This document shows, in pieces, positions 10,107 to 55,051 of a stretch of 64,000 bases of DNA. The stretch is taken from positions 62,001 to 126,000 of the forward strand of contig JAJXYC010000005.1 of NCBI GenBank assembly GCA_021780815.1, in the 5' to 3' direction. Source of the stretch: Bacteroidota bacterium. Its GTDB lineage: Bacteria; Bacteroidota; Ignavibacteria; Kapaibacteriales; UBA2268. Each line of letters starts with the position of its first letter. Position 1 is the first letter of the stretch. Below the pieces are notes generated by a model, which was not told the DNA's origin, did no database searches, and saw only the letters and a program-made list of their open reading frames with translations. A program made the position numbers and the translations under genes.

Positions 10107-11342
10107 CTATTCGTATCTTAATGCTTCCACAGGGTCAAGTGAAGCTGCACGATATGCAGGAAATACTCCTGAAATTAATCCCAGTACTAAAGAAATACTT
10201 AAACTAATAATAATCCACTTAATAGATAAAACAAATGAAGTACCCGCTAAAATACCGAGCAAGCCTCCTGCAAGTATTCCAAAGAAAATACCAACAGAAC
10301 CACCTATCATTGTTAAAGTAATTGTTTCGAAAATAAAATGTGATACTATCCACCTTTTTTTAGCTCCAACTGCTTTACGAATACCTATTTCGCGTGTGCG
10401 CTCTTTTACAGTAATTAGCATAATATTTGTAATGCCAACTCCCGCTGCTAACAATGCAATTAGACCAGAAAAGAAACCAAAATAAGATAAAAATCCTGTT
10501 AAACTGCCAAATTGATCAGCTAACGATTGATTAGTTTCAATTTCAAAATCGTTTTCTTCCCAAGGTTCAAGATTACGAATTATTCTCATACTACCAACTG
10601 CTTCATCTATTAAATATGACAAAGAAATTTTATCTGGTGCCCGCACTATTATTGTTATATCAGACCACCAATCAGAAGCAAAATAAGTTAAAAATTGAGA
10701 TAAAGGCAAAATTACTAAATTATCTTGACTTTGACCTAACAAGGCACCTTTTGGTTTCAATGTGCCAATTACTGTATATGGTCTATTATTAATTTTAATT
10801 GTTTTGCCAATTGGATTTTCTCTTGGAAAAATCTTTACTATTACATCATTTCCAATAATAGCAACATCTTTTTTATATTCAATGTCAGTTTTTGTTAAAG
10901 CTCTACCATCTTGCACATCGTAATTAGAAGTTAGGAAATAATTTTCATCAGTACCAACCAATGTAACATCGGGGTCTGTCGCCAAAATATTATGTTTAAC
11001 AACATAACCTGCTGACTTTGCCATACCAGTAACTAATACGTTACTTCCCATTTTGTCTCGGAACGAGTTATATACTTTTTGATTAATCAAAGGTCTGCGT
11101 GCATATTTATGCCAATCACCACCACCCAACATAATATTAGGTATTCTAAAAATAAAGAACGTGTTTTCACCTAAAGCATCAATTTGCCCTTGAACTGTTG
11201 TATCAATTGAGGTTACCAGAGAACCTGCAAACATAATCGCAAAAACACCAATAACAATGCTTAACAATGTAAAAAAAGCCCTTAATTTTTGACTTCTTAT
11301 TGAATCAAAAGCTTGTCTAATTGTATCAAGTAATCTTTCCAT
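10107..11342 (-). CDS. MacB-like ABC transporter permease (FtsX family)
   Basis: A 411-residue permease with the MacB_PCD-FtsX layout: one N-terminal TM helix (SIVIGVFAIMFAGSLV), a periplasmic core domain of about 220 residues, then three C-terminal TM helices including the family motif TREIGIRKAVGAKKR. Such permeases couple cytoplasmic ATP hydrolysis to movements of the periplasmic domain and push substrates through a MacA/TolC channel. It is last in a minus-strand operon TolC, RDD, membrane fusion protein, ATPase, permease, permease. It resembles the gene just upstream (11355-12608) and the two probably form a heterodimer. Confidence 0.93.
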   Translation of the reverse strand: MERLLDTIRQAFDSIRSQKLRAFFTLLSIVIGVFAIMFAGSLVTSIDTTVQGQIDALGENTFFIFRIPNIMLGGGDWHKYARRPLINQKVYNSFRDKMGSNVLVTGMAKSAGYVVKHNILATDPDVTLVGTDENYFLTSNYDVQDGRALTKTDIEYKKDVAIIGNDVIVKIFPRENPIGKTIKINNRPYTVIGTLKPKGALLGQSQDNLVILPLSQFLTYFASDWWSDITIIVRAPDKISLSYLIDEAVGSMRIIRNLEPWEENDFEIETNQSLADQFGSLTGFLSYFGFFSGLIALLAAGVGITNIMLITVKERTREIGIRKAVGAKKRWIVSHFIFETITLTMIGGSVGIFFGILAGGLLGILAGTSFVLSIKWIIISLSISLVLGLISGVFPAYRAASLDPVEALRYE

Positions 11343-11354
11343 TATTTTATCTCC

Positions 11355-12608
11355 TTATTCATACCTAATTGCTATTACAGGTTCAAAATTAGAAGCACGT
11401 ATAGCAGGAATTAATCCTGCAAATATACCAACTACTATTGAAATAATTGAAGCAATCAAAAGCAAGTCAAAAGGAATAAGAGGAGCTAGGAAAGAAACTT
11501 GTGGAACAAAACTAACAACAAATGTTGCTGTTAAGTAAGCAATAAGCGAAGTTAAGATAAAAGAAATAACTGCTCCAAAAAATGAAAGTATAGTTGATTC
11601 CATAATAATTTGCATTAATATAATACGCTTCTTTGCTCCTAATGCTTTTCTAATTCCAATCTCTTTAGTTCTTTCAAAAATTGAAACAAACATAACATTA
11701 ACAATTCCAATAATTCCAACCAAAAAAGAAAGCAAAGTCATACCAATACCAACCGACCAAACAACTAATCGAATTGTTGCAACTTGTTCTTCAAAAGCTT
11801 TGGTTTCATTAATAGAAAAATCGTTCTGTTGACCGGGTTTTAAATTTCGAATTATTCTCATATTCCCTTCAACTTCTGCACGAGCATTGTCTAAATTTTG
11901 TATTCCACCAGCTTTAACCGCAATAGAGTAAGACCTATTATATTTTCCATATAACTTTAAAAATGATTTCAAAGGTATATAACAAATATTATCAATAAAA
12001 TCAAAAAAAGTCGTCCCCTGTTGAGTAATTACTCCAATTACAGTAAATTTTTGCCCATTAATTTTTATTTGTTTTCCAAGAGCATCACCTTTCGGAAAAA
12101 TTGTTTGGTAAACTTTCCAACCGATACAAATTACATCAGAAGCGTATTCGTCTTCATTCTGAGAAAAAAATCTACCATATTCAATTGAACCCCCTGGTGT
12201 AAGCCCAAAATCATAGGTCGTACCTTGAACTGTTATACCTTGATAAGTTGTATTCTCGTACTTTACTTGCGATCCCCAAATTCTTGCAACAGGGACAGCA
12301 ATTTCAATATCTTTAAGCGATTTAATTAATTTATTGGCTTGTTCTAACGTAATATTTGGACGATTTCGGACATCTTTCCAAGACTTACCCCCTGCCCAAT
12401 CGTGCTTATCAACATACATTACATCGACACCCATAATTTTAAAGGAATCTTCCATTGCACTGTCAAGTCCAGATAAAACCCACCCCATTAAAATTACAAA
12501 AGTTATACCAATAATCACTCCAAGTGAAGCAAGAAATGAACGGCTTCTATTTGCCATAATTGATTCAGCTGCTTGACCAAAAGCTTCTCTAATTTCAAAA
12601 AGTTTCAT
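11355..12608 (-). CDS. MacB-like ABC transporter permease (FtsX family)
   Basis: A 417-residue paralog of the downstream permease, separated from it by 12 bases. It has the N-terminal TM (LGVIIGITFVILMGWVL), a periplasmic domain, then TM helices with the motif TKEIGIRKALGAKKR near residue 310. Both permeases end in similar tails (DPVEALRYE and EPVIAIRYE). Two distinct permease genes beside one ATPase suggest a heterodimeric transporter rather than the homodimeric, ATPase-fused MacB of Escherichia coli. Confidence 0.93.
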   Translation of the reverse strand: MKLFEIREAFGQAAESIMANRSRSFLASLGVIIGITFVILMGWVLSGLDSAMEDSFKIMGVDVMYVDKHDWAGGKSWKDVRNRPNITLEQANKLIKSLKDIEIAVPVARIWGSQVKYENTTYQGITVQGTTYDFGLTPGGSIEYGRFFSQNEDEYASDVICIGWKVYQTIFPKGDALGKQIKINGQKFTVIGVITQQGTTFFDFIDNICYIPLKSFLKLYGKYNRSYSIAVKAGGIQNLDNARAEVEGNMRIIRNLKPGQQNDFSINETKAFEEQVATIRLVVWSVGIGMTLLSFLVGIIGIVNVMFVSIFERTKEIGIRKALGAKKRIILMQIIMESTILSFFGAVISFILTSLIAYLTATFVVSFVPQVSFLAPLIPFDLLLIASIISIVVGIFAGLIPAIRASNFEPVIAIRYE

Positions 12609-12622
12609 TTTCCCTTTCTAAA

Positions 12623-13330
12623 TTAAGCATAAATAGGATTTTGATTAATATAATCATCAATAATTAATCCATCACGTAACTTAATAATACGTCGAGCATG
12701 CCGAGCAATATCTTCTTCGTGAGTAACTAAAATGATAGTATTACCATTTTTCCAAAGTTCATAAAAAAGATGCATAATTTCTTCGCCAGTTTTTGTATCA
12801 AGATTACCAGTTGGTTCATCAGCAAAAATTAAACTTGGATTATTAATTAAGGCACGAGCAATTGCAACCCGTTGTCTTTGTCCACCCGAAAGTTCAGGTG
12901 GTTTGTGATGCATTCTATCTCCTAATCCAACACTTTCTAATGCTTTTATTGCTCTTTCTATTCTTTCTTCCTGTGGAACACCAGCATAAATTAATGGCAA
13001 TTCAACATTTTTAATACAATTAGCACGAGGCATTAAATTAAATGTTTGAAAAACAAACCCAACCCTTTTATTTCTAATTTCAGCAAGTTGATTATCATTC
13101 ATAGACCCAACTTCCTCATTTTCAAGAAAATATTGCCCAGACGTTGGCGAATCTAAACAACCAAGTATGCTCATCAATGTAGTTTTCCCAGAACCAGATG
13201 GTCCCATTATTGCAAGATATTCATTTCGTTTCACATCCATTGTAATTTCACGTAAAGCATATACTTCGGTCATTCCCATATTATAAACTTTCGTAATCTT
13301 ATCAATTTTTATTAAAGCGTTATTATCCAT
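12623..13330 (-). CDS. ABC transporter ATP-binding protein, MacB/LolD type
   Basis: A 235-residue ATPase with Walker [11 protein letters not shown]-loop [11 protein letters not shown], signature [15 protein letters not shown], Walker [13 protein letters not shown] and the H-loop VTHEE. The LDTKTG and NLMPR stretches are typical of the LolD/MacB/FtsE branch, which powers mechanotransmission through FtsX-type permeases. It lies between the membrane fusion protein gene and two permease genes and is their evident motor. The spacing of 14 bases to the next gene indicates one transcript. Confidence 0.95.
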
Positions 13331-13356
13331 AATTATTAGAATTAGCTTAGAACTTA

Positions 13357-14628
13357 TTATTTTTTATTTTTAGACTTTTTATCGTTAGCCGTTGTAATTA
13401 ATGAGCCATCTTCAAGTAATTTACTAATAGCTTGGAAACTACCTGAAATAACTTCATCACCTTCTTTTAATCCATCTTTAATTTCTATATAGCCATCATC
13501 AGAGATTCCTGTTTTCACTGTTTCCATTTTGGCTCTATCTTTATTTTTAATAAAAACTATTACAGGTGGCTTCTCCTTGGCTTTGTTTTCTTCATCAGAC
13601 TTGTCAACTTTTCTTACACCACGCTCATCAGTTTTCTTATTATCAAAAATACGCATTGTTACAGATTGTAATGGAACGGCAAGAACATTATATTTTGTTT
13701 CAGTAGTAATATCCGCATTACAAGTCATACCCGGACGAAGCTTGGGATTAGGATTCAAAATTCTTAATTTTACTTTAAATTTTGTAGCCTGGTCTTGTGT
13801 TCCTGTTGAACTTACCACAGCAGAGTGTCCTATTTCATATACAACTCCTTTGCAATCGTAGTCAGGTAAAGCATCTATTTCAATTCTGGCTGTATCACCT
13901 TTTCTCAAAAGGACAATATCATTTTCATCAACATCAACTTCTGCATTCATAACCGTTAAATCAGAAATAATCAACATTTCAGTCCCTTGAAACTGTTGTG
14001 TTCCTAAAACTGTTTCACCAATTTCAATATTCCTATTGGTAACAATACCATTCATTGTTGAATAAATAACAGTTCTAGAGGCATTTCTTTCAATTTGCTT
14101 ATATGATGCAATTGCTTGGTTCAATCTAGCTAAAGAAGCTTGATAGTTAGAAGATGTTTGTTGATAATTTGCATTATAATTATCAAATTCTTGTTGCGAA
14201 ATATATTTATTCTTAAATAAATCTTGCGCTCTTTTTAAGTCAGCTTGCGTTTGATTTAATTTTTCTTTAACAGATTGAGCATCCATTTTAGCGGCATCCA
14301 CCGATGCTTTATATTGTGCTAACATAGTTTCAACAATATCAGGCTTAATTTTAATAAGTAATTCACCTTTTTTTACTGTATCACCTTCTTGTACTCCCAC
14401 ATAAATTACTTCTCCACTTGTTTCAGGAGAAACTTTGACTTCTGTTTCTGCTTGTATTTGACCAACGGCAGATACTGTTTGTGTAATTGTCCTTTTTTGA
14501 ACTTTTTCTATTGTTACTTCAATTGGCTTTGGACCTCGGTTATTTAAAGCAATTGCCCCTATAACACCAATGATTATTAAAATTGCAACAACAATTACAT
14601 TTCTTTTCTTTTTGTTCTTTTTTGCCAT
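13357..14628 (-). CDS. Periplasmic adaptor (membrane fusion protein), MacA/HlyD family
   Basis: A 423-residue adaptor with a single N-terminal TM after a Lys-rich start ([10 protein letters not shown]). It shows the lipoyl half-motifs ([17 protein letters not shown] and [19 protein letters not shown]), a long alpha-helical hairpin between them (about residues 100-180), and C-terminal beta-barrel and membrane-proximal domains. It bridges the inner-membrane permease complex to the TolC channel encoded upstream. The segment around residues 330-350 is highly charged and looks like a surface insertion. The tail ends in a run of Lys. Confidence 0.93.
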
Positions 14629-14669
14629 TTATTTATCCTTGAATTTTTTTTTTACAAATTTAAATTGAA

Positions 14670-15371
14670 CTAAATATTAGGTTGCGATTCTTTTTCAATG
14701 TTGATATCTACTTCTTTCTTGAAAAACACTGCCGTCTTTGTTATTTTATCATATATGGATTGTTTGTTTTGTCTAATAACAAAAAAGAAGAAAATCATAA
14801 CTAAAAATGAAACATAACTGGATAATGTACTGAAAATACTTGACCAAGTGAAATAGTAAATCAACGAAAATACCAAATCTAAATGTTTTATTAAAAATCT
14901 GGTTGTTAGTTGATAATAATTTGCATAATGCATATTTTCTTCTGCAATAATTATTCCGAGAACATGTTTTCCGGGCGAACCTGACAATAAAATTTCAGTA
15001 GAATAATAAACAAAACTTACTAATAAAGTAATCGGCAAGTAATCCTTCATAAAGTTTGTTGCAAAATTAGGGTCAATAAAATCAGAAAAATTCATATTAG
15101 TACTAAAAACACCAGTAGCAAATCCAAGTATTGAAATAAGAATTGCTACAAAAATTGAGTCAATAATAGCAGCAGCAAAACGCCTTCCAAAACCAACTCT
15201 ATAATCCCATAAATTATATTGCTGGTTATAGTTAGGCAAAATACTTCTTAATTTATCCTGTGCATCAAATTTTGGTGAATTCGGATTTTCGTCATTTTGC
15301 TCTATCTTTTTCTCTTCATTTTTTTCTTTTGCTTCATCATTGTTGTGATTTAAGTCGTTATTTAAATCCAT
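14670..15371 (-). CDS. RDD family membrane protein
   Basis: A 233-residue protein with a hydrophilic, Asn/Asp/Glu-rich N-terminus of about 55 residues followed by the RDD module: the Arg in GFGRRFAAAIIDSIF, the Asp of IID at the start of TM1, and the GKHVLGI loop, plus roughly four TM helices. The role of RDD proteins is poorly defined; some have been linked to ion transport. Its place inside an exporter operon, between TolC and the adaptor, is unusual and suggests a functional or regulatory link, although simple co-transcription is possible. Confidence 0.85.
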   Translation of the reverse strand: MDLNNDLNHNNDEAKEKNEEKKIEQNDENPNSPKFDAQDKLRSILPNYNQQYNLWDYRVGFGRRFAAAIIDSIFVAILISILGFATGVFSTNMNFSDFIDPNFATNFMKDYLPITLLVSFVYYSTEILLSGSPGKHVLGIIIAEENMHYANYYQLTTRFLIKHLDLVFSLIYYFTWSSIFSTLSSYVSFLVMIFFFFVIRQNKQSIYDKITKTAVFFKKEVDINIEKESQPNI

Positions 15372-15406
15372 TTTATCTCCATTTTTTAATTATAATTCTT
15401 CAAAAC

Positions 15407-16750
15407 CTAATTTAACATGCCTGTTGAATACTCAATTTCCTTTTGAGTAAGAAGATAGTAAAAAACACTATTGATTTTATTAATTTTTGCATTTAAGAAT
15501 TGTGTATTAGCTTGAATCAAATCAGTAATACTTGCAGTACCAACATTAAATCTTTCTTTTAAAATTTTATAATTTAAATCAGCAGAAAATAAAGCTTTTT
15601 CAGATATTTTAATTTGTTTTTCAGCCGCATCTAAATTTAAAAATGCAGTTTCAATTTCAGTTTTAATACTTAATTCCATATCGGATTTTTGAACTTGCTG
15701 TATTTGGAAACTATATTCAGCTTGTTGAACTGCCGCATTAGTAGAAAAGCCTGTAAAAATTGGGACATTCAAACTTAGACCAATATAACTTCTTCCTTTA
15801 TTGTTAAAGTCATCAAAAGCAGTATTACTCCAAGACCAACCTGTTCCTAATGCTAATGAAGGAAAATAAGCAGATTGAGCCGACATAACAGTATTTTGAG
15901 CGGCAGATATGTTTTTTAGTTGCGACAGAAAATCTTTACGGTTCTTGAAAGCAAAATTTATTGCGGCATCAAAATCTCCAATATGGTTTCTAAAATTCGT
16001 AAAATCATTTTCACCAACATCAGTATTAATATCAGCAGTAGAAAAATCAGCTTTTTCAATCGGATTTTTCCCCATTAATGCTAACAAATTTGCACGAGAA
16101 ATATTCAAATCATTTTCGGCTTTTGCCAAATCTAATTCAAGTGAACCTAAATCTGCTTCTTTTGAGTAAACAGCAGAAATAGGTAAAGTCCCAGCTTCGC
16201 TTTGTGCTTTAATACTTGCTAATTCTTGTTGACCTTGGTCTAAATTTTCTTTTCGTGTTTGAACAATTTGCTTTTTTGAAGCATAATCAAAAAATCGTCT
16301 ATAAATATTAATTTTCAATAAAACTTTAGATTGGTCATAAGAAAGCAAATTGCCTTGATATGTATCTTCGGCAGAATTATATGTCGCTTCCCTATTGAAG
16401 CCGTCAAATAAATTTAATCCTGCATTAATTCCCATATTGTAAGAATTAAGACTTGTTGCACCAATATTAATAACTTGCCCACCAACATTAACCGATTGCC
16501 CACCTTGTGTATTTAATTGGCGATTGTAACCCATCGAAAATTGAATGTTCGGCAAATAACTCCCAAATGCAGCTTTTAAATTTGCTTGCGATGATGCAAT
16601 TACAGCTTTTGCTCTTATTATATCTAAATTTTGAGCTAAACCAATTTTAATACATTCTTCCAAAGTATATGTTGTTTCTGAACTTTTTTGTGCATTTAAA
16701 ATGATTGGTAAAAGGATTGTTAGCAATAATATACTTTTTATTTTACGCAT
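15407..16750 (-). CDS. TolC family outer membrane channel
   Basis: A 447-residue outer-membrane efflux protein with a signal peptide ending near LNAQ. It has two OEP repeats of long coiled-coil helices, each starting with a pattern such as YTLEECIKIGLAQNLDI and ending in a conserved element (FNVGTASITDLIQAN). It is the first gene of the six-gene minus-strand exporter operon and should form the trimeric exit duct for the MacAB-like pump. It is divergent from the TetR gene, with a 189-base shared regulatory region that includes a long palindrome. Confidence 0.94.
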   Translation of the reverse strand: MRKIKSILLLTILLPIILNAQKSSETTYTLEECIKIGLAQNLDIIRAKAVIASSQANLKAAFGSYLPNIQFSMGYNRQLNTQGGQSVNVGGQVINIGATSLNSYNMGINAGLNLFDGFNREATYNSAEDTYQGNLLSYDQSKVLLKINIYRRFFDYASKKQIVQTRKENLDQGQQELASIKAQSEAGTLPISAVYSKEADLGSLELDLAKAENDLNISRANLLALMGKNPIEKADFSTADINTDVGENDFTNFRNHIGDFDAAINFAFKNRKDFLSQLKNISAAQNTVMSAQSAYFPSLALGTGWSWSNTAFDDFNNKGRSYIGLSLNVPIFTGFSTNAAVQQAEYSFQIQQVQKSDMELSIKTEIETAFLNLDAAEKQIKISEKALFSADLNYKILKERFNVGTASITDLIQANTQFLNAKINKINSVFYYLLTQKEIEYSTGMLN

Positions 16751-16874
16751 ACTTCTTTAATTTTGTTTTTAATAATATTATTATTACGAATGATTGATTA
16801 GAATGTTACGAAATTATGAAAAAAAAATTAAAATTTTTTTTATTTAAAAAGTATTTCTATTTTAATTTTTTTAT

Positions 16875-16882
16875 TAATTTTG
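16875..16882 (+). promoter_or_regulatory. Possible Bacteroidota-type -7 box for the TetR efflux operon
   Basis: TAATTTTG matches TAnnTTTG and directly abuts the left arm of the inverted repeat. Transcription from it would start inside the palindrome, the arrangement expected if a bound TetR dimer blocks RNA polymerase. No clear TTG -33 element is seen about 19 bases upstream, and the region is very AT-rich, so the match could be chance. Confidence 0.35.
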
Positions 16883-16920
16883 AACTTTATAGTTTAACTA
16901 TTTAGTTAAACTATAAAGTT
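16883..16920. promoter_or_regulatory. Perfect 17-bp inverted repeat, likely TetR operator
   Basis: The left arm AACTTTATAGTTTAACT (16883-16899) and right arm AGTTAAACTATAAAGTT (16904-16920) are exact reverse complements with the 4-base spacer ATTT. The site ends 19 bases before the TetR ATG and lies between that gene and the divergent TolC gene. Its position and symmetry fit an autoregulatory operator of the TetR protein, and it may also affect the opposite exporter operon. The length exceeds a minimal TetR site, so it may hold two overlapping sites. A transcript hairpin is an alternative, but there is no T-tract to make it a terminator. Confidence 0.7.
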
Positions 16921-16939
16921 AAATAATTTGATTATTTTT

Positions 16940-17557
16940 ATGGAAAAAAGTACTAATACAGAAAAACTGATTTTAGATGCCGCTTTGCAAGTATTTTCGC
17001 AAAAAGGTTTCGCCGGTGCACGTATGCACGAAATAGCTGATCTAGCAGGTATTAACAAAACTTTATTGTATTATTATTTTAGATGTAAAAAGAAACTTTT
17101 TGAAAAAATTTTTGAAATTGTTTCTAATGAACTTATTAGTAATTTGTTTTCTTTAAATATTGAAAATTCTAATTGGAAAGAAGGTGTTAATAAGTTTTGC
17201 CAATTATACATTGATTTTTTTAAAGATAAGCGATTTATTCCTCAATTTGTTATTAATGAATTAGGAGAAAATCCAGATTGGATACTTAAACATTTTTCTA
17301 AATTAAATATTTTAAATACTCCATTTTTAAAAAATTTTTCCAATTCAATTAAAAATGAATTAAACAAAGAAGTGCCAATTGACGAAATAATGGTTAATAT
17401 GATATCTTTGCTTCTTCTTCCAATAATTGTAGGACCATTAATACAAACAATTATTAATCAATCGGAAGAAAGCTATAATCTTTTTATTGAAAATAGAAAA
17501 AAAAATGTTCCTAAAATAATTATTGAATTTATTGAAAATTATAAGGTAATAGAATGA
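16940..17557 (+). CDS. TetR family transcriptional regulator
   Basis: About 205 residues. The N-terminal helix-turn-helix (ILDAALQVFSQKGFAGARMHEIADLAGINKTLLYYYF, spanning residues about 11-47) is a canonical TetR DNA-binding domain; the C-terminal helices would bind an inducer. I start it at the ATG at 16940; an in-frame TTG at 16928 would add four residues. Its last base overlaps the next gene (ATGA), so it is translationally coupled to a TolC-HlyD-ABC export operon, which it presumably represses. The palindrome at 16883-16920 is its probable operator. Confidence 0.93.
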   Translation: MEKSTNTEKLILDAALQVFSQKGFAGARMHEIADLAGINKTLLYYYFRCKKKLFEKIFEIVSNELISNLFSLNIENSNWKEGVNKFCQLYIDFFKDKRFIPQFVINELGENPDWILKHFSKLNILNTPFLKNFSNSIKNELNKEVPIDEIMVNMISLLLLPIIVGPLIQTIINQSEESYNLFIENRKKNVPKIIIEFIENYKVIE

Positions 17558-18822
17558 AAAAAATAGTTTCAATCTTACTTTTATTGATAATTGCTTCATC
17601 TCTTTATGCAAACGAATTATCATTATCTGAAATATTAAATATTTTTGAAAAGAATTCCACAAATGAAGCAAAGAAAGCAATTTACGATAAAATACAAAAT
17701 TTAGAATTAGAAAATTTAAATACAGAATACTATCCAAAATTAAACTTAGTCGGTCAAGCACAATATCAATCGGAAGCTTTCTCTTTGCCAATTAATATAC
17801 CGCTTATTACATTACCAAAAATTCCATTAGACCAATATTATTCTGCAATAGAAGTAGAACAACTTGTGTTTGACGGTCTTTCAATTTCAAGAAGCAAAGA
17901 TATTGTTGAAAGCAAAGAAAAAATTAATAAAATTTCAAATGAAACAGAAAAATTAAAAATTAAAGAGAACATTATAAAATTATACTTTGGAATTCTAATT
18001 TTTCAAAAACAAATTGATATTAATAACACTGCTATAAATGATTTGAATTCTAAGTTAAATCAGTTTCAATCTATGTATGATAACGGTATTTTGCTGAAAA
18101 CTGCAATTAATCAAGTTCAAATTGAAATTTTGCGTCGACAAGAAGATTTAATTAAAATTCAGAAGGACATTTCTACACTCAAAAGCAGTTTAAAGCAAAT
18201 TTGTGGATTAGAAAACGCACTTTTTGACGTTTCAGTTCCACAAACAATAAATTCCAGCCAAATAAATTTTGACAAAAGACCTGAAATGTTGCTTTTCAAT
18301 GCAAATGATGAATTAATAGATAAAAATAAATCTTTGGTTAATTCCAACTATTTACCTAAGCTTTCAGTTTTTGCAAAATATGGATATGGAAGCCCAAATC
18401 CAAACAATTTTATGAAAACAGGATTTTCAACTTTTTATAATGTCGGTATTCGTTTAAAATGGGAAATTTTTGATTGGAACAAAAACTTTCATAGCAAAGA
18501 AATTCTTGATTATAATACAGAAATAGTAAATTACGATAGAATAAACTTTTTAAGAACTGTTAATTCACAAGTTATAGAAGAACAAAACAATATTGAAAAA
18601 TATGAAGAGAATCTAAAAAAAGATGAAGATATCGTAAATATTCAAGAAGACATTATTAAAGAAAGTTACTCTCAGCTCATCAATGGAGTAATCACAATGA
18701 CAGATTACATTATTAATTATAACAATTTACAAAGAACCAAATTAAATATTGAAATAGATAAAATCTTAAAATTAGAATCAATATATAATATTCAACTAAA
18801 AACTAATAATGAATTAAAATAA
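17554..18822 (+). CDS. TolC family outer membrane efflux protein
   Basis: A 422-residue outer-membrane channel with a signal peptide (MKKIVSILLLLIIASSLYA). Long coiled-coil helices and the repeated OEP organisation are visible: the second half contains the PEMLLFNANDELIDKN helix and the beta-strand-like segment YLPKLSVFAKYGYG. It starts within the TetR stop codon (ATGA). It is the exit duct for the HlyD/ABC-2 exporter encoded downstream and is only distantly similar to the other TolC protein of this window. Confidence 0.9.
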   Translation: MKKIVSILLLLIIASSLYANELSLSEILNIFEKNSTNEAKKAIYDKIQNLELENLNTEYYPKLNLVGQAQYQSEAFSLPINIPLITLPKIPLDQYYSAIEVEQLVFDGLSISRSKDIVESKEKINKISNETEKLKIKENIIKLYFGILIFQKQIDINNTAINDLNSKLNQFQSMYDNGILLKTAINQVQIEILRRQEDLIKIQKDISTLKSSLKQICGLENALFDVSVPQTINSSQINFDKRPEMLLFNANDELIDKNKSLVNSNYLPKLSVFAKYGYGSPNPNNFMKTGFSTFYNVGIRLKWEIFDWNKNFHSKEILDYNTEIVNYDRINFLRTVNSQVIEEQNNIEKYEENLKKDEDIVNIQEDIIKESYSQLINGVITMTDYIINYNNLQRTKLNIEIDKILKLESIYNIQLKTNNELK

Positions 18823-18832
18823 CGAGGAATAA

Positions 18833-19723
18833 ATGAAAAATACAATTGCAATGTTATTTATATTGATGCTTTTGTCATCTTGTTCAAAAGATAACTCAAC
18901 AGCAGATGCTTACGGAAACTTTGAATCTACCGAGGTAGTGGTATCAGCAGAAGGCACAGGTAAAATTGTTGCTTTTGATTGTGATGAAGGTAACAAAGTT
19001 ATAAAAAATCAAATTTTAGGTGTTATTGATACTTTGCAACTTCAATTTCAAAAAGAACAGTTTGAAGCAAATATTTATGCAATAACTTCTAAGGTAAGAG
19101 ATGTCCAAGTAGAAATCAATGTCTTAGATGAAAGGAAAAAGGCACTATTAATTGATAAGAATAGACTTGCCAAATTGTTCAAAGATAGTGCGGCTACTCA
19201 AAAACAAATAGATGATATTAATTCTCAACTTGACATACTTGACAAGCAAACTATTGCAACCAAAAGAGGAATGAATATTTCTAACGAAGGACTTCTTGCA
19301 GAAATTAAACCTTTGCAAGTAAAATTAAAACAAGTTGAAGACCAAATCCAAAAATGCAAAATACAATCCCCTATTAACGGAACAATTTTAAACAAATACA
19401 CAGAAGCGGGAGAATTTGCTGTCATTGGAAAACCATTATTTAAAATTTCTAATTTGGATACTTTAGATTTAAAAGCTTATGTTTCTGAAACACAATTGCC
19501 CCAAATAAAATTAGGTCAAACTGTTAATGTTTTTGTTGATTTGAAAAATAATAAACAGCAAACACTTAAAGGAACATTATATTACATAGCAAGTGAGGCA
19601 GAATTTACTCCAAAAGTTATACAAACAAAAGAAGAAAGAGTAAATTTAGTTTATGCTATTAAAATTAAAGTGGCAAATAACGGAGAATTAAAATTAGGAA
19701 TGCCCGCAGAAGTCAGGTTTTAA
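18833..19723 (+). CDS. HlyD family periplasmic adaptor, lipoprotein
   Basis: A 296-residue adaptor with a lipoprotein signal (MLLSSCSKD), so it is anchored by lipid rather than a TM helix. It has a lipoyl half-motif around GTGKIVAFDCDEGNKV, a coiled-coil hairpin (residues about 70-170), the second half-motif IQSPINGTILNKYTEAGE and a beta-barrel domain. The layout matches the YbhG-type adaptors of the YbhGFSR exporters. It lies 10 bases after TolC, with a GAGGAA ribosome-binding site just before the ATG. Confidence 0.9.
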   Translation: MKNTIAMLFILMLLSSCSKDNSTADAYGNFESTEVVVSAEGTGKIVAFDCDEGNKVIKNQILGVIDTLQLQFQKEQFEANIYAITSKVRDVQVEINVLDERKKALLIDKNRLAKLFKDSAATQKQIDDINSQLDILDKQTIATKRGMNISNEGLLAEIKPLQVKLKQVEDQIQKCKIQSPINGTILNKYTEAGEFAVIGKPLFKISNLDTLDLKAYVSETQLPQIKLGQTVNVFVDLKNNKQQTLKGTLYYIASEAEFTPKVIQTKEERVNLVYAIKIKVANNGELKLGMPAEVRF

Positions 19724-19742: not shown

Positions 19743-20657
19743 ATGAAAGCAATTATAGCCGAGAATTTAAGCAAAAAATATCAAGAAGTTCAAGCAATTG
19801 AGAACGTGAGTATTGATGTCAACTTTGGCGAAATATTTGGTTTAATAGGTCCCGATGGAGCTGGTAAAACCACAATTATAAGAATTTTGACAACATTAAT
19901 TCTTGCTGATTCAGGTAATGCTAATGTAAATACTTTCGACGTAGTTAAAGATTACCAAAAAATTCGTAAAAGTGTGGGTTATATGCCCGGTAAATTTTCA
20001 CTTTACGAGGATTTAACTGTTGAAGAAAATGTTAAACTTTTTGCCTCAATTTTTAATTCTAAATTTGAAGAAAATTATAATTTAATCAAAACAATTTATT
20101 CTCAAATTGAACCATTTAAAAATCGATTAGCAGGTCAATTATCTGGCGGAATGAAACAAAAACTTGCTTTATCTTGTGCTTTAATCCACAAACCTAAAAT
20201 ATTATTTTTAGATGAACCTACAACAGGTGTAGATGCTGTTTCTCGCAAAGAGTTTTGGGAAATGTTAATTGACCTTAAAAATCAAGGATTGGCTATTTTG
20301 GTTTCTACTCCATATATGGATGAAGCTTCGCTATGCGATAGAGTTGGGTTAATTCAACATGGGAAAATAATGCAAATTGATACACCAACCAAAATTGTTC
20401 AAGATTTTAAACATAGCATCTTTGGTATTGAATCAAATAAAGTATATACAATATTAGAATTGTTAAGAACTTATCAAAATACTTACTCCTGTTATGCTTT
20501 CGGAGATAAAATTCATTATATTGACAAAAGAAATAAATTTGACATAATGGACATTCAAAACTTTTTAAAGGGAAACAAAGTCGAGAATTTTATAATATTA
20601 GATAATGTAAAACCAACGATAGAAGATTGTTTTATGGATTTAATGAGACATCAATGA
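19743..20657 (+). CDS. ABC transporter ATP-binding protein, YbhF N-half-like
   Basis: A 304-residue ATPase with Walker A GPDGAGKTT, signature LSGGMKQKLALSCAL, Walker B ILFLDEPTTGVD and a switch region where histidine is replaced: VSTPYMDEA instead of VTHxxDE. That Tyr-for-His pattern (STPYMDEA) also occurs in the first ATPase half of YbhF-type exporters and may indicate a degenerate ATP site. A C-terminal accessory domain of about 80 residues follows. The stop overlaps the start of the next ATPase (ATGA), so the pair are expected to act as a heterodimer equal to a split YbhF. Confidence 0.92.
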   Translation: MKAIIAENLSKKYQEVQAIENVSIDVNFGEIFGLIGPDGAGKTTIIRILTTLILADSGNANVNTFDVVKDYQKIRKSVGYMPGKFSLYEDLTVEENVKLFASIFNSKFEENYNLIKTIYSQIEPFKNRLAGQLSGGMKQKLALSCALIHKPKILFLDEPTTGVDAVSRKEFWEMLIDLKNQGLAILVSTPYMDEASLCDRVGLIQHGKIMQIDTPTKIVQDFKHSIFGIESNKVYTILELLRTYQNTYSCYAFGDKIHYIDKRNKFDIMDIQNFLKGNKVENFIILDNVKPTIEDCFMDLMRHQ

Positions 20658-21394
20658 GCAATAATTTTGCAATAAAAACAATAGATTTAACAAAAAAATT
20701 TGGCAATTTTACTGCCTGCGACAATTTAACTTTTGAAGTGCATAAAGGAGAAATATTTGGTTTTCTTGGGGCTAATGGTGCAGGTAAAACAACCGCAATG
20801 AAAATGTTAAGTGGACTTTTATCGCCAACCAGTGGAACTGCTAAAATTGCTGATTATGATATTTACAAAGAATCTGAAAAAATTAAAAAAAATATTGGCT
20901 ATATGAGCCAGAAATTCTCTTTGTATGACGACTTGACAATCCAAGAAAATATTAATTTCTTTGCAGGAATTTATGGATTATCTAATAAATTAATTAAAGA
21001 GAAAAGCGAAGTAGTTATAAATGAACTAGATTTGAAGAAACAACAGAACAAACTCGTAGGTTCGTTACCCTTAGGGTGGAAACAAAAGCTTGCATTTTCA
21101 ATTGCTATTTTTCACAATCCTGCAATTGTTTTCCTCGATGAACCAACTGGTGGCGTAGATCCTGTTACAAGAAGGCAATTTTGGGATTTAATTTATCAAT
21201 CAGCAGAAAGAGGTTTAACCGTTTTTCTTACTACTCATTATATGGACGAATCTGAATATTGTAATAGAATTGCTATTATGGCTAATGGTAAATTAGCCGC
21301 TATCGGAACACCAAAAGAACTAAAAGAATCAAATTCTTCAAGTTCAATGAATGATGTTTTTATCCAAATTGCAAGAGGGAAAAATTATGTTTAA
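20654..21394 (+). CDS. ABC transporter ATP-binding protein, YbhF C-half-like
   Basis: About 246 residues from the ATG at 20654; an in-frame TTG at 20627 is less likely. It has Walker A GANGAGKTT, Walker B IVFLDEPTGGVDP and the H-loop TTHYMDES. The signature motif is LPLGWKQKL in place of LSGGxxQ, a variant characteristic of the second ATPase half of YbhF-like proteins. Together with the preceding ATPase it forms two non-equivalent nucleotide sites. It overlaps the permease gene by eight bases, which suggests coupled translation. Confidence 0.93.
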   Translation: MSNNFAIKTIDLTKKFGNFTACDNLTFEVHKGEIFGFLGANGAGKTTAMKMLSGLLSPTSGTAKIADYDIYKESEKIKKNIGYMSQKFSLYDDLTIQENINFFAGIYGLSNKLIKEKSEVVINELDLKKQQNKLVGSLPLGWKQKLAFSIAIFHNPAIVFLDEPTGGVDPVTRRQFWDLIYQSAERGLTVFLTTHYMDESEYCNRIAIMANGKLAAIGTPKELKESNSSSSMNDVFIQIARGKNYV

Positions 21395-22493
21395 TGGCTT
21401 TTTAGGCTTTTTTAAAAAAGAATTTATTCAAATTTTTAGAGATAAAAAATCTTTATTAATTTTACTCGGGATTCCTACTATTCAAATTCTACTTTTTGGA
21501 TTTGCAATTACTAATGAAATCCGAGATGTAAGAATTGCTATTTTGGATTATTCAAAAGATAATACAACGAAAGAAATAATTTCAAAGATTGTTTCCACAA
21601 ATTACTTTAAATTATACAAAATGCTTAGAAACGAAAAAGACATTGAACGTGCTTTTCAAACTGGCGAAATTAAAGAAGCAATTGTTTTTAGTCAGAATTT
21701 TGGGCAAAATTTAGAAAAGTTTGGTAAAGCAAATGTTCAATTTATTAATGATGGTACTGACCCCAATACTGCAACCACAATAATTGGATATACAAATTCT
21801 ATAATCGGTCAATACCAAAACGAGATAACCCGAACTCGCCAAATCCCTTTAATAATCACACCAGAAGTAAAAATGCGATATAATCCTGAATTAAAAGGTG
21901 TATTTTTATCAGTTCCTGGTTTAATCTCAATAATTTTAATGCTTATTTCTGCTATGATGACTTCAATTTCTATTACAAAAGAAAAAGAAAGCGGTTCAAT
22001 GGAAGTTTTGCTTGTATCTCCTATTAAACCCGCTGTTGTTATTATTGCCAAAGTAATCCCTTATGCTATTATTTCAGTTACAATTGCAACAATAGTATTA
22101 ACATTAGGAAGGTTTGTTTTTGAAGTCCCGATTAAAGGAAATTTAATTTTACTTTTTGCAGAAATAACGGTTTATGTTATTATGAGCCTTTCATTAGGAA
22201 TATTAATTTCTACTGTTGCAAAAACACAACAAGTAGCACTATTTATTTCTTTAATAGGACTAATGATGCCAACAGTTCTTTTGTCCGGCTTCATCTTCCC
22301 TATTGAAAATATGCCTATTTGGCTTCAACCTTTTACTTATCTTATTCCTGCAAGATGGTTTATAGTCATTATTAAAAATATAATGTTAAAGGGTTCAGAT
22401 TTTTCAACTATATTAAATGAAACTTTAGTTTTATTTTTAATGATTTTAGTAACAATTTCAATAAGTATTAAAAAATATAAAATCCGATTGTAA
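21387..22493 (+). CDS. ABC-2 type permease (YbhS/YhhJ-like)
   Basis: About 368 residues from the ATG at 21387, chosen because a good ribosome-binding site (AGAGGGA) lies eight bases upstream; an in-frame ATG at 21351 would lie deep in the preceding gene. It has one N-terminal TM helix (LLILLGIPTIQILLFGFAI), a large periplasmic loop of about 140 residues and five C-terminal helices with the family motif KEKESGSMEVLLVSPI. Such permeases pair with a second ABC-2 subunit to export drugs or cell-envelope compounds. Confidence 0.93.
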   Translation: MFNGFLGFFKKEFIQIFRDKKSLLILLGIPTIQILLFGFAITNEIRDVRIAILDYSKDNTTKEIISKIVSTNYFKLYKMLRNEKDIERAFQTGEIKEAIVFSQNFGQNLEKFGKANVQFINDGTDPNTATTIIGYTNSIIGQYQNEITRTRQIPLIITPEVKMRYNPELKGVFLSVPGLISIILMLISAMMTSISITKEKESGSMEVLLVSPIKPAVVIIAKVIPYAIISVTIATIVLTLGRFVFEVPIKGNLILLFAEITVYVIMSLSLGILISTVAKTQQVALFISLIGLMMPTVLLSGFIFPIENMPIWLQPFTYLIPARWFIVIIKNIMLKGSDFSTILNETLVLFLMILVTISISIKKYKIRL

Positions 22494-23620
22494 TGAGACA
22501 AATTTTATTAATAATTATCAAAGAATTTAAACAAATATTCCGCAATAGGATATTGTTACCGCTAATTTTTATGATGCCAATAATTCAATTATTGATTTTA
22601 GCAAACGCCGCTACTTTTGAAATTAAAAAAATTAAATTAGCTATTATTGACAACGATAAATCTCATATTTCTAAAAATTTTGCTTATAAGCTCCAATCCG
22701 GCGATTATTTTAAAATTATTGATTACCCAAATTCAATCAAAGATGCAGAAAAATTGTTAGAAACAAATTCTATTGATTTATATATTTATATCCCAAATAA
22801 TTTTGAGCGAAATTTAGCAAAAGAACATACCGAAAAAATTGGAGTTGTTGTTAATGCTATTGATGGTTCAAAAGCAGGAGTTTCGTTTAATTATTTACTT
22901 AACAATATCGCATCTTATCAAAGTGAATTAACTAAAACTTTTGGAAATAAAATAAATTTACAGATAGCACAATCTCCTAAAATAATTTCAAATGATTACT
23001 ATTTTTGGTATAACTTAAATCAGGATTATAAAATTTATGTAGTCCCTGGTTTATTAGTCTTATTAATTACAATAGTTGGTATTTTTTTGACAGCAATTAA
23101 CATTGTAAGAGAAAAAGAAATTGGAACAATTGAGCAAATTAATGTTACACCAATTAAAAAAATTGAGTTTATCATAGGGAAGCTCCTTCCTTTCTGGTTA
23201 ATTGGAATGTTTGAGTTAATTTTCGGAATGATTGTCGCAAGAATTGTTTATCATATCCCTGTATTAGGAAATCCTTTATTAATTATTGGATTTGCATCTA
23301 TTTATCTTACTTTGGTTTTAGGGATAGGATTGCTTATTTCTACGGCTTCACAAAATCAGCAGCAAGCAGTTTTCATCTCTTGGTTCTTTATGTTAATCTT
23401 TGTACTTCTTAGTGGTCTTTTTACTCCTATTGAAAATATGCCTCCTCTCGTACAAAATATTACTTTATTCAACCCCTTAAAGTATTTTATTGAAGTTATC
23501 AGATTAGTAATGTTAAAAGGTTCTACTTTTTCTGATATAAAACTGCAATTTTTTATGACTACTCTGTATTCTTTGGTCATTAACTCAATTGCAATATTAG
23601 TTTATAGAAAAAGCTCCTGA
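22493..23620 (+). CDS. ABC-2 type permease (YbhR/YhhJ-like)
   Basis: A 375-residue paralog of the preceding permease, starting within its stop (TAATG). It has the same architecture: a TM helix near residues 17-38, a periplasmic domain, then five TM helices including VREKEIGTIEQINVTPI and a conserved PLKYFIEVIR near the C-terminus. It is the last structural gene of the exporter operon. A convergent TetR gene ends 12 bases away, without an obvious terminator in between. Confidence 0.93.
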   Translation: MRQILLIIIKEFKQIFRNRILLPLIFMMPIIQLLILANAATFEIKKIKLAIIDNDKSHISKNFAYKLQSGDYFKIIDYPNSIKDAEKLLETNSIDLYIYIPNNFERNLAKEHTEKIGVVVNAIDGSKAGVSFNYLLNNIASYQSELTKTFGNKINLQIAQSPKIISNDYYFWYNLNQDYKIYVVPGLLVLLITIVGIFLTAINIVREKEIGTIEQINVTPIKKIEFIIGKLLPFWLIGMFELIFGMIVARIVYHIPVLGNPLLIIGFASIYLTLVLGIGLLISTASQNQQQAVFISWFFMLIFVLLSGLFTPIENMPPLVQNITLFNPLKYFIEVIRLVMLKGSTFSDIKLQFFMTTLYSLVINSIAILVYRKSS

Positions 23621-23632
23621 TATTTTTTATGT

Positions 23633-24217
23633 TTATTTCAAGAATGTATTTTCAACAAGAATTTGAATTTGATTTTCAAATACTTCTTGCGGGTATTTAT
23701 CAACATTCTGCAAAGCAAATTCAATAAAGTTCCATACAGCTCCGATTAAAAATGGAACAGCCAATTCAGGTTTAATTTCTTGTTTAAACTCGTTTTTGTC
23801 AATACCTTCTTGTATCAATTGGAAAAGAACTATCCTGATTCCTCCCATTACTTTACTTAAATTTTCAAAGGTTGGATCATTCCAAATTGCATATTCTTGT
23901 AATACCATTCTTGCAATTTGACTTTTTCTTTTTGCTAATTCATAAATTTTTAATGCTGACTTTGCAATTTTTTCTTTTGAAGTTATATTTGTTTTTCCCA
24001 GAATTAAATCCAGTTCTTCTTTCACCGTTGACCAAATATCAACCAATATTTCTTTTAAAATATGTTCTTTATTTTCAAAATATAAATAAATCGTGCCAGT
24101 ACCAATACCTGCTAAATCAGATATGTCATTTATTTTCGCATTGTAAAATCCATCTCTTGCAAATATTATTAAACCAGCCTGTAAGATTGCTTCTCTCTTT
24201 TTCTTTTCCTTCTTCAT
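23633..24217 (-). CDS. TetR family transcriptional regulator
   Basis: A 194-residue regulator with an N-terminal helix-turn-helix (AILQAGLIIFARDGF then DISDLAGIGTGTIYLYF). The C-terminal region is typical of FadR/AcrR-like members that sense fatty acyl or hydrophobic ligands, but the inducer cannot be inferred. It is convergent with the ABC-2 export operon, so that operon has a TetR gene at each end. A small AT-rich palindrome lies 14 bases upstream of its start and could be its own operator. Confidence 0.92.
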   Translation of the reverse strand: MKKEKKKREAILQAGLIIFARDGFYNAKINDISDLAGIGTGTIYLYFENKEHILKEILVDIWSTVKEELDLILGKTNITSKEKIAKSALKIYELAKRKSQIARMVLQEYAIWNDPTFENLSKVMGGIRIVLFQLIQEGIDKNEFKQEIKPELAVPFLIGAVWNFIEFALQNVDKYPQEVFENQIQILVENTFLK

Positions 24218-55011: not shown

Positions 55012-55051
55012 ATATAAACAACTCCATTTCATAAAATGGAGTTGTTTATAT
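55012..55051 (+). terminator. Rho-independent terminator after the tricorn gene
   Basis: An exact 18-bp inverted repeat: the left arm ends in CAACTCCATTT at 55029, the right arm starts AAATGGAGTTG at 55034, with the loop CATA. It lies 18 bases after the stop and runs into TTTATAAT. The stem is unusually long and perfect. Confidence 0.85.

Follow-up and report, generated by a model that had tools for sequence, protein, structure and literature searches.

Two sets of efflux genes diverge from a 189-bp intergenic gap in the window, by which we mean the whole stretch of 64,000 nucleotides analysed here. On the minus strand a tolC-like ORF (15407–16750) heads a MacAB-like operon (10107–16750) comprising tolC, recognized with a family library, and genes assigned by eye to a small membrane protein, a MacA-like protein, an ATPase and two MacB-like permeases. 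On the plus strand, starting with the ATG at 16940, lies a gene for a TetR-family regulator of 205 amino acids (16940–17557), followed almost without gaps by six exporter genes: a TolC-like outer membrane efflux protein (17554–18822; PF02321) whose start overlaps the tetR stop and whose place in the gene order is conserved, an HlyD-like membrane fusion protein (18833–19723; PF13437), ABC ATPases a (19743–20657) and b (20654–21394; both PF00005), the ATG of the latter at 20654 overlapping the stop of the former, and ABC-2 permeases a (21387–22493) and b (22493–23620; both PF12698). The top NCBIfam match of the HlyD-like protein was NF002939 (PRK03598, secretion protein HlyD), which we take to be the YbhG model, at 108.9 bits and thus below the cut-off of 393. 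A second TetR-family gene (23633–24217, minus strand), for which the best NCBIfam match was FadR of Bacillus, also below cut-off, lies just past the last exporter gene, to which it is convergent.

The gap contains a perfect inverted repeat at 16883–16920, with arms at 16883–16900 and 16903–16920 separated by the spacer TT. The original prediction had described a perfect repeat with 17-bp arms, lying between divergent efflux systems directly upstream of the TetR gene and adjoining a TAnnTTTG box; its placement and perfection were confirmed, while the arms proved to be 18 bp long. The box, TAATTTTG at 16875–16882 on the plus strand, abuts the palindrome and would be the Bacteroidetes-type –7 box of the tetR-exporter promoter, a role that we take from work in Bacteroidetes and assume for this lineage. 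The palindrome ends 19 bp before the tetR start, and grows to 16880–16923 when one mismatch is allowed. When the 64-kb window was shuffled 200 times with its dinucleotides preserved, the longest perfect arm (loop of at most 10) measured 9 to 15 bp and never reached 18. The only other such case in the window is an 18-bp perfect inverted repeat with a 4-nt loop and AT-rich flanks at 55012–55051, which may be a bidirectional terminator.

The long palindrome resolves into a 16-bp core dyad, TTAACTATTTAGTTAA at 16894–16909, of the form TTAACYANNTRGTTAA, together with two imperfect copies of it placed 13 bp to either side: TGAACTTTATAGTTTA at 16881–16896 (–13; three mismatches, counted by eye) and TAAACTATAAAGTTAA at 16907–16922 (+13; two mismatches). 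On one side of the core the tetR start is 30 bp away; on the other, 144 bp separate it from the divergent tolC start codon. A scan of the 2.63-Mb genome (20 contigs), as had been suggested, found a single perfect copy of the core, the one here, and eight more places with one mismatch; the nine matches fall short of the 45 for a reversed-pattern control, so the eight additional places are no evidence of a regulon. With ORFs of 100 or more amino acids taken from a simple ORF call, six of these places overlap one and two do not, and a regulon spread across the window's own genome was rejected on these counts. One of the one-mismatch dyads, TTAACTAAAAGGTTAA (G000:C9:20878; about 1501–1516 of the extracted locus, L035), stands immediately upstream of the probable ATG of a multihaem cytochrome c gene, with a TATTTTTG box preceding it; it is probably a chance match, although it could be a second target.

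We collected relatives of the TetR protein in two sets. The first came from 100 related genomes, of which the best 30 loci were used, the window included; the second came from named genomes, among them Ignavibacteria, Flavobacterium, Chitinophaga, Bacteroidales and Balneolaceae, and consisted of the best 80 of 573 confirmed TetR relatives. The first 30 loci yielded the pattern TTAACYANNTRGTTAA, which we then looked for in the 80, two of which overlap the first set. Among the best 30 loci, the set that shaped the pattern, 20 carried the core dyad with at most one mismatch, and the same-genus genome G003 carries TTAACTAAATAGTTAA. In the second set (best 80 of 573), the best dyad within 250 bp upstream had zero, one, two or six mismatches at 42, 25, 12 and 1 of the 80 loci, respectively, such that 67 of these 80 relatives had a dyad with at most one mismatch, vs. 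0.15 of 80 expected from base-shuffled controls. In the larger set of 112 proteins used for the covariation counts below, four loci had no site with two or fewer mismatches before tetR: L020 and L205, whose TetR has glutamine at position 40, and L021 and L113, which have lysine there, L113 with only 82 bp of upstream DNA. By this comparison the palindrome appears conserved among relatives at the regulator's own promoter.

The 13-bp spacing was likewise found beyond the window. For these counts we used 86 of 104 loci, having dropped the 18 that lacked a core with at most one mismatch; two loci (L002 and L065, the same records as L040 and L005) were omitted here and from the covariation counts below, the nine loci with leucine, isoleucine or valine at position 40 were left out of the half-site array and box-offset counts, and five loci were added from one later set, the rest of which was already included. 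An exact half-site RGTTAA recurred at +13 in 36 of the 86 loci and at +26 in 14, compared to 0.12 on average across 76 other offsets. Whole dyads, with three or fewer mismatches, recurred at +13 in 61 of 86, at +26 in 23 and at –13 in 10, with a median of 0 elsewhere. The window carries both flanking dyads, and it is their symmetrical arrangement that makes its palindrome 38 bp long; perfect arms of 18 bp, counted outward from the 2-bp spacer, were found there only, the other 85 loci having arms of 9 bp or less. The presumed –7 box also keeps its distance: 48 of 56 occurrences of TAnnTTTG near the core in the 86 loci start at one of a few offsets, namely –19/–18 (10 cases, with the window at –19), –11 (8), –8 (21) or –5 (9). 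This clustering at fixed offsets before the core indicates that only a short distance separates the box from the operator behind it, so that a repressor bound there would sit over the transcription start.

The protein predicted to bind the palindrome is encoded next to it. It has the TetR_N helix-turn-helix (PF00440, E 1.2e–14, 54.3 bits vs. a cut-off of 24), placing it in the TetR family, and its AlphaFold model (pLDDT 88) consists of helices only, including one at residues 40–47 that is the probable recognition helix (K40…Y44). Foldseek ranked RutR first (TM 0.78, about 22% identity), with RutR chains occupying all of ranks 1 to 8 and CecR (9i1x) appearing at rank 32, so that by fold this TetR is closer to RutR; its score against the RutR equivalog model, 49.5 bits, lies below the cut-off of 368. 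In our alignment K40 falls at K52 of RutR, the residue with which helix 3 begins according to PMC10891134, where a contact with guanine is expected by comparison with QacR.

Residue 40 proved to track the letters of the operator. Among 112 TetR proteins (L012 having been dropped because its protein was too short), those with lysine, serine or arginine at position 40 were accompanied by a TTAACYA-type half-site in 95 of 101 cases and by a TTAAWCA-type in none, with four ties and two lacking a site, while TTAAWCA accompanied all nine proteins with leucine, isoleucine or valine there, a pattern that had been drawn from six of these nine members. The corresponding figure in shuffled upstream regions was 0.25 of nine for TTAAWCA, and shuffling the other 104 loci gave 1.0 TTAACYA-type and 2.9 TTAAWCA-type. 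Neither half-site type was found with the two Q40 proteins. These counts are not independent events, because the sequences share ancestry, and the L/I/V40 group is probably one clade. One protein (L097) mixes the two recognition-helix types, with K40 and N44, and its locus has a hybrid dyad, CTAAACAGTTGGTTAA.

A natural experiment on operator placement was provided by genomes in which the exporter is split. Among 54 genomes from the window's family, 16 carry the perfect dyad, with 28 copies in all; this is fewer than the 66 matches to a reversed control in the same genomes, so the signal lies in where the sites are placed and not in their number. Twenty-five of the 28 are accounted for: 15 are at this tetR, and 10 stand directly before split-off ABC ATPase or permease genes on other contigs (eight of these checked by tblastn and two, of G046, by coordinates). 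In each of four genomes of one related genus (G024, G038, G051 and G046) the exporter is divided among three loci, with tetR and tolC at one, two ABC ATPase genes and permease a at another and permease b at the third, and a perfect dyad is present at every one (L211–L214, L220 and L221; G046 by coordinates). G010 and G016 add one split-off site each. In G010 there is no dyad before tetR (L021), but there is one before the exporter genes on another contig, and a dyad with one mismatch immediately precedes the separated permease b of G016. No site with fewer than four mismatches was found in the loci read for the G014 permeases (C39) or the G016 permease a (C305), which may be internal to operons that contig ends interrupt. 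Three perfect sites are left over by tetR and the exporter: G006:C56, inside an ORF, and G014:C453:3100 and G051:C47:12412 (L216 and L219), which lie outside ORFs of at least 100 amino acids and away from tetR and exporter genes, and are possibly further targets or chance matches.

We conclude with considerable confidence, on the comparative evidence of a conserved dyad, a 13-bp array, a position behind the –7 box, covariation with the helix and operators before split-off exporter genes, that the palindrome is the autoregulatory operator of the adjacent TetR and controls a CecR/YbhGFSR-like ABC-2 exporter, probably through several dimers. That TetR is the protein bound is suggested jointly by the covariation of operator and helix, the match to RutR in fold and at K40, and the presence of the operator before most split-off exporter pieces. 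The part of the original prediction that assigned TetR to this site as a regulator of the ABC-2 operon is supported by the comparative evidence. Our search of the open-access literature, with subscription journals mostly outside its reach, found no earlier account of the palindrome as an operator.

The other part of that prediction was that a TetR bound here could also influence, by repression or activation, the divergent tolC-MacAB-like operon at 10107–16750, coupling two export machines. This attractive idea we now regard as improbable. The gap of 189 bp does fall below the 200-bp rule given in Ahn et al. 2012 (PMC3511530), and E. coli CecR is listed in PMC8249747 with the targets ‘cecRybhRGFSR/rhlE’, rhlE being its divergent neighbour. 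In addition, the MacAB-linked tolC of one relative, G018, is preceded at 282 bp by a dyad with a single mismatch, TTAACAAATTGGTTAA (L155, G018:C177), in a genome where our search of related genomes detected no TetR relative. The window itself argues otherwise, however, with its core dyad on the tetR side of the gap and no exact TAnnTTTG on the minus strand of that gap; the nearest one-mismatch box to tolC is TAATTTCG at 16816, which would leave the operator well upstream of the footprint of RNA polymerase for tolC.

Comparison with other genomes was also unfavourable to coupling. The G018 case was the only one of 29 relatives (from the best 30 loci) with a dyad of at most one mismatch in the 400 bp before a MacAB-linked tolC, vs. 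0.05 of 30 in shuffles; L156, among the 29, gives no information, its match starting within the gene. A MacAB-type gene was divergent to tetR at none of the 80 named loci, 56 of which came with 6 kb of upstream DNA. The two systems are on different contigs in G003. The window's genus has four other genomes, three of which have homologues of both tolC and macA and lack a close TetR. MacA-like homologues were found in all 60 genomes searched (two of them weak, and the window's own genome included), and homologues of the MacAB-linked tolC in 59 of the 60 (several weak or partial). The MacAB-like operon is therefore widespread, usually elsewhere and without the dyad, and a shared operator coupling the two systems must be regarded as unsupported.

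Two further explanations are very improbable. The palindrome might function in the RNA of the 5′ leader, as a hairpin or terminator, rather than as a DNA operator, and the stretch does fold at –18.9 kcal/mol (z –5.4, 200 shuffles), but this is expected of any perfect palindrome. What the relatives conserve is a 16-bp dyad whose spacer, always 2 bp, leaves too little room for an RNA loop; they also repeat half-sites directly at 13-bp steps with short arms in all loci but the window, and vary the dyad letters together with the TetR recognition helix. A different regulator, such as the second TetR-like protein (23633–24217, minus strand), encoded past the last exporter gene, might bind the operator instead, but the dyad goes with the upstream tetR, and its letters covary with that protein's own recognition helix; no separate match to the second TetR was found in the 80 loci, most of which reach no further than about the last of the exporter genes.

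Returning to the autoregulatory operator, we envisage that a TetR dimer would recognize the 16-bp core at 16894–16909 and that additional dimers probably sit on the weaker overlapping dyads 13 bp to either side, their occupancy being the probable reason for a palindrome of such length. Since no gap separates the TAnnTTTG box from the operator, a TetR dimer sitting there would mask the presumed transcription start and keep RNA polymerase out; the expected effect is repression, not activation, of both its own gene and the tolC-hlyD-ABC-ABC-ABC2-ABC2 exporter genes downstream. A ligand, presumably a substrate of the exporter, would free TetR from the operator. TetR operators of this sort are commonplace, and what makes the site interesting is how widely it is conserved, its 13-bp array and the covariation of helix and operator. 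QacR is said to place two dimers on one operator (IR1), and EthR reportedly binds one operator as an octamer. The proposed multi-dimer binding would resemble these cases in having more than one dimer per extended operator; the 13-bp step with a 3-bp overlap of successive dyads is what is seen in the present system.

What had been an anonymous palindrome thereby becomes a predicted, testable operator for an exporter widespread in Bacteroidota and Ignavibacteria, and its motif can find stray exporter parts within a genome, as in the one genus with scattered genes. More broadly, we give about even weight to a protein-DNA code in a RutR/CecR-like TetR lineage (Bacteroidota and Ignavibacteria, with a related form in E. 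coli), according to which position 40 would set TTAACYA vs. TTAAWCA and the exporter would be guarded by 16-bp dyads overlapping by 3 bp at a 13-bp step with dimers side by side, the window palindrome being the most symmetric such array. The covariation of one residue with one base offers a simple mutant-swap test of DNA specificity in the TetR family.

Two of the nearest known systems each share part of this design. RutR of E. coli, the best fold match, has the aligned lysine at the start of its recognition helix, and its consensus, TTGACCANNTGGTCAA, differs from TTAACCANNTGGTTAA by one base per half-site. It has no exporter operon of the CecR-YbhGFSR-like type. The RutR box is a palindrome of about 16 bp, like the core dyad here, and RutR, whose ligand is uracil, serves the metabolism of pyrimidines and purines (PMC10891134). 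The cecR-ybhGFSR operon of E. coli (CecR being also called YbiH) has the same one-directional order, with the TetR gene first and then those for an HlyD-like protein, an ABC ATPase and two ABC-2 permeases; the window shows this order with a tolC-like gene added, which the E. coli operon lacks, and with two separate ATPase genes in place of the single ybhF. The recognition helix is N-K-T-L-L-Y here and N-I-A-A-I-T in CecR, which thus has isoleucine at the equivalent of position 40, and the half-site is TTAACTA here and of TTAATCA type there. E. coli cecR too is preceded at short distance by a palindrome, whose half-site TTGATTAA is related; TCAATCATTTGATTAA starts 30 bp before the gene. In the E. 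coli K-12 locus that we extracted (L209), the palindrome TCTTAATCAATCATTTGATTAAGA, of the TTAAWCA type that accompanies hydrophobic residues at the first position of the recognition helix, starts 36 bp before cecR and is a probable CecR site.
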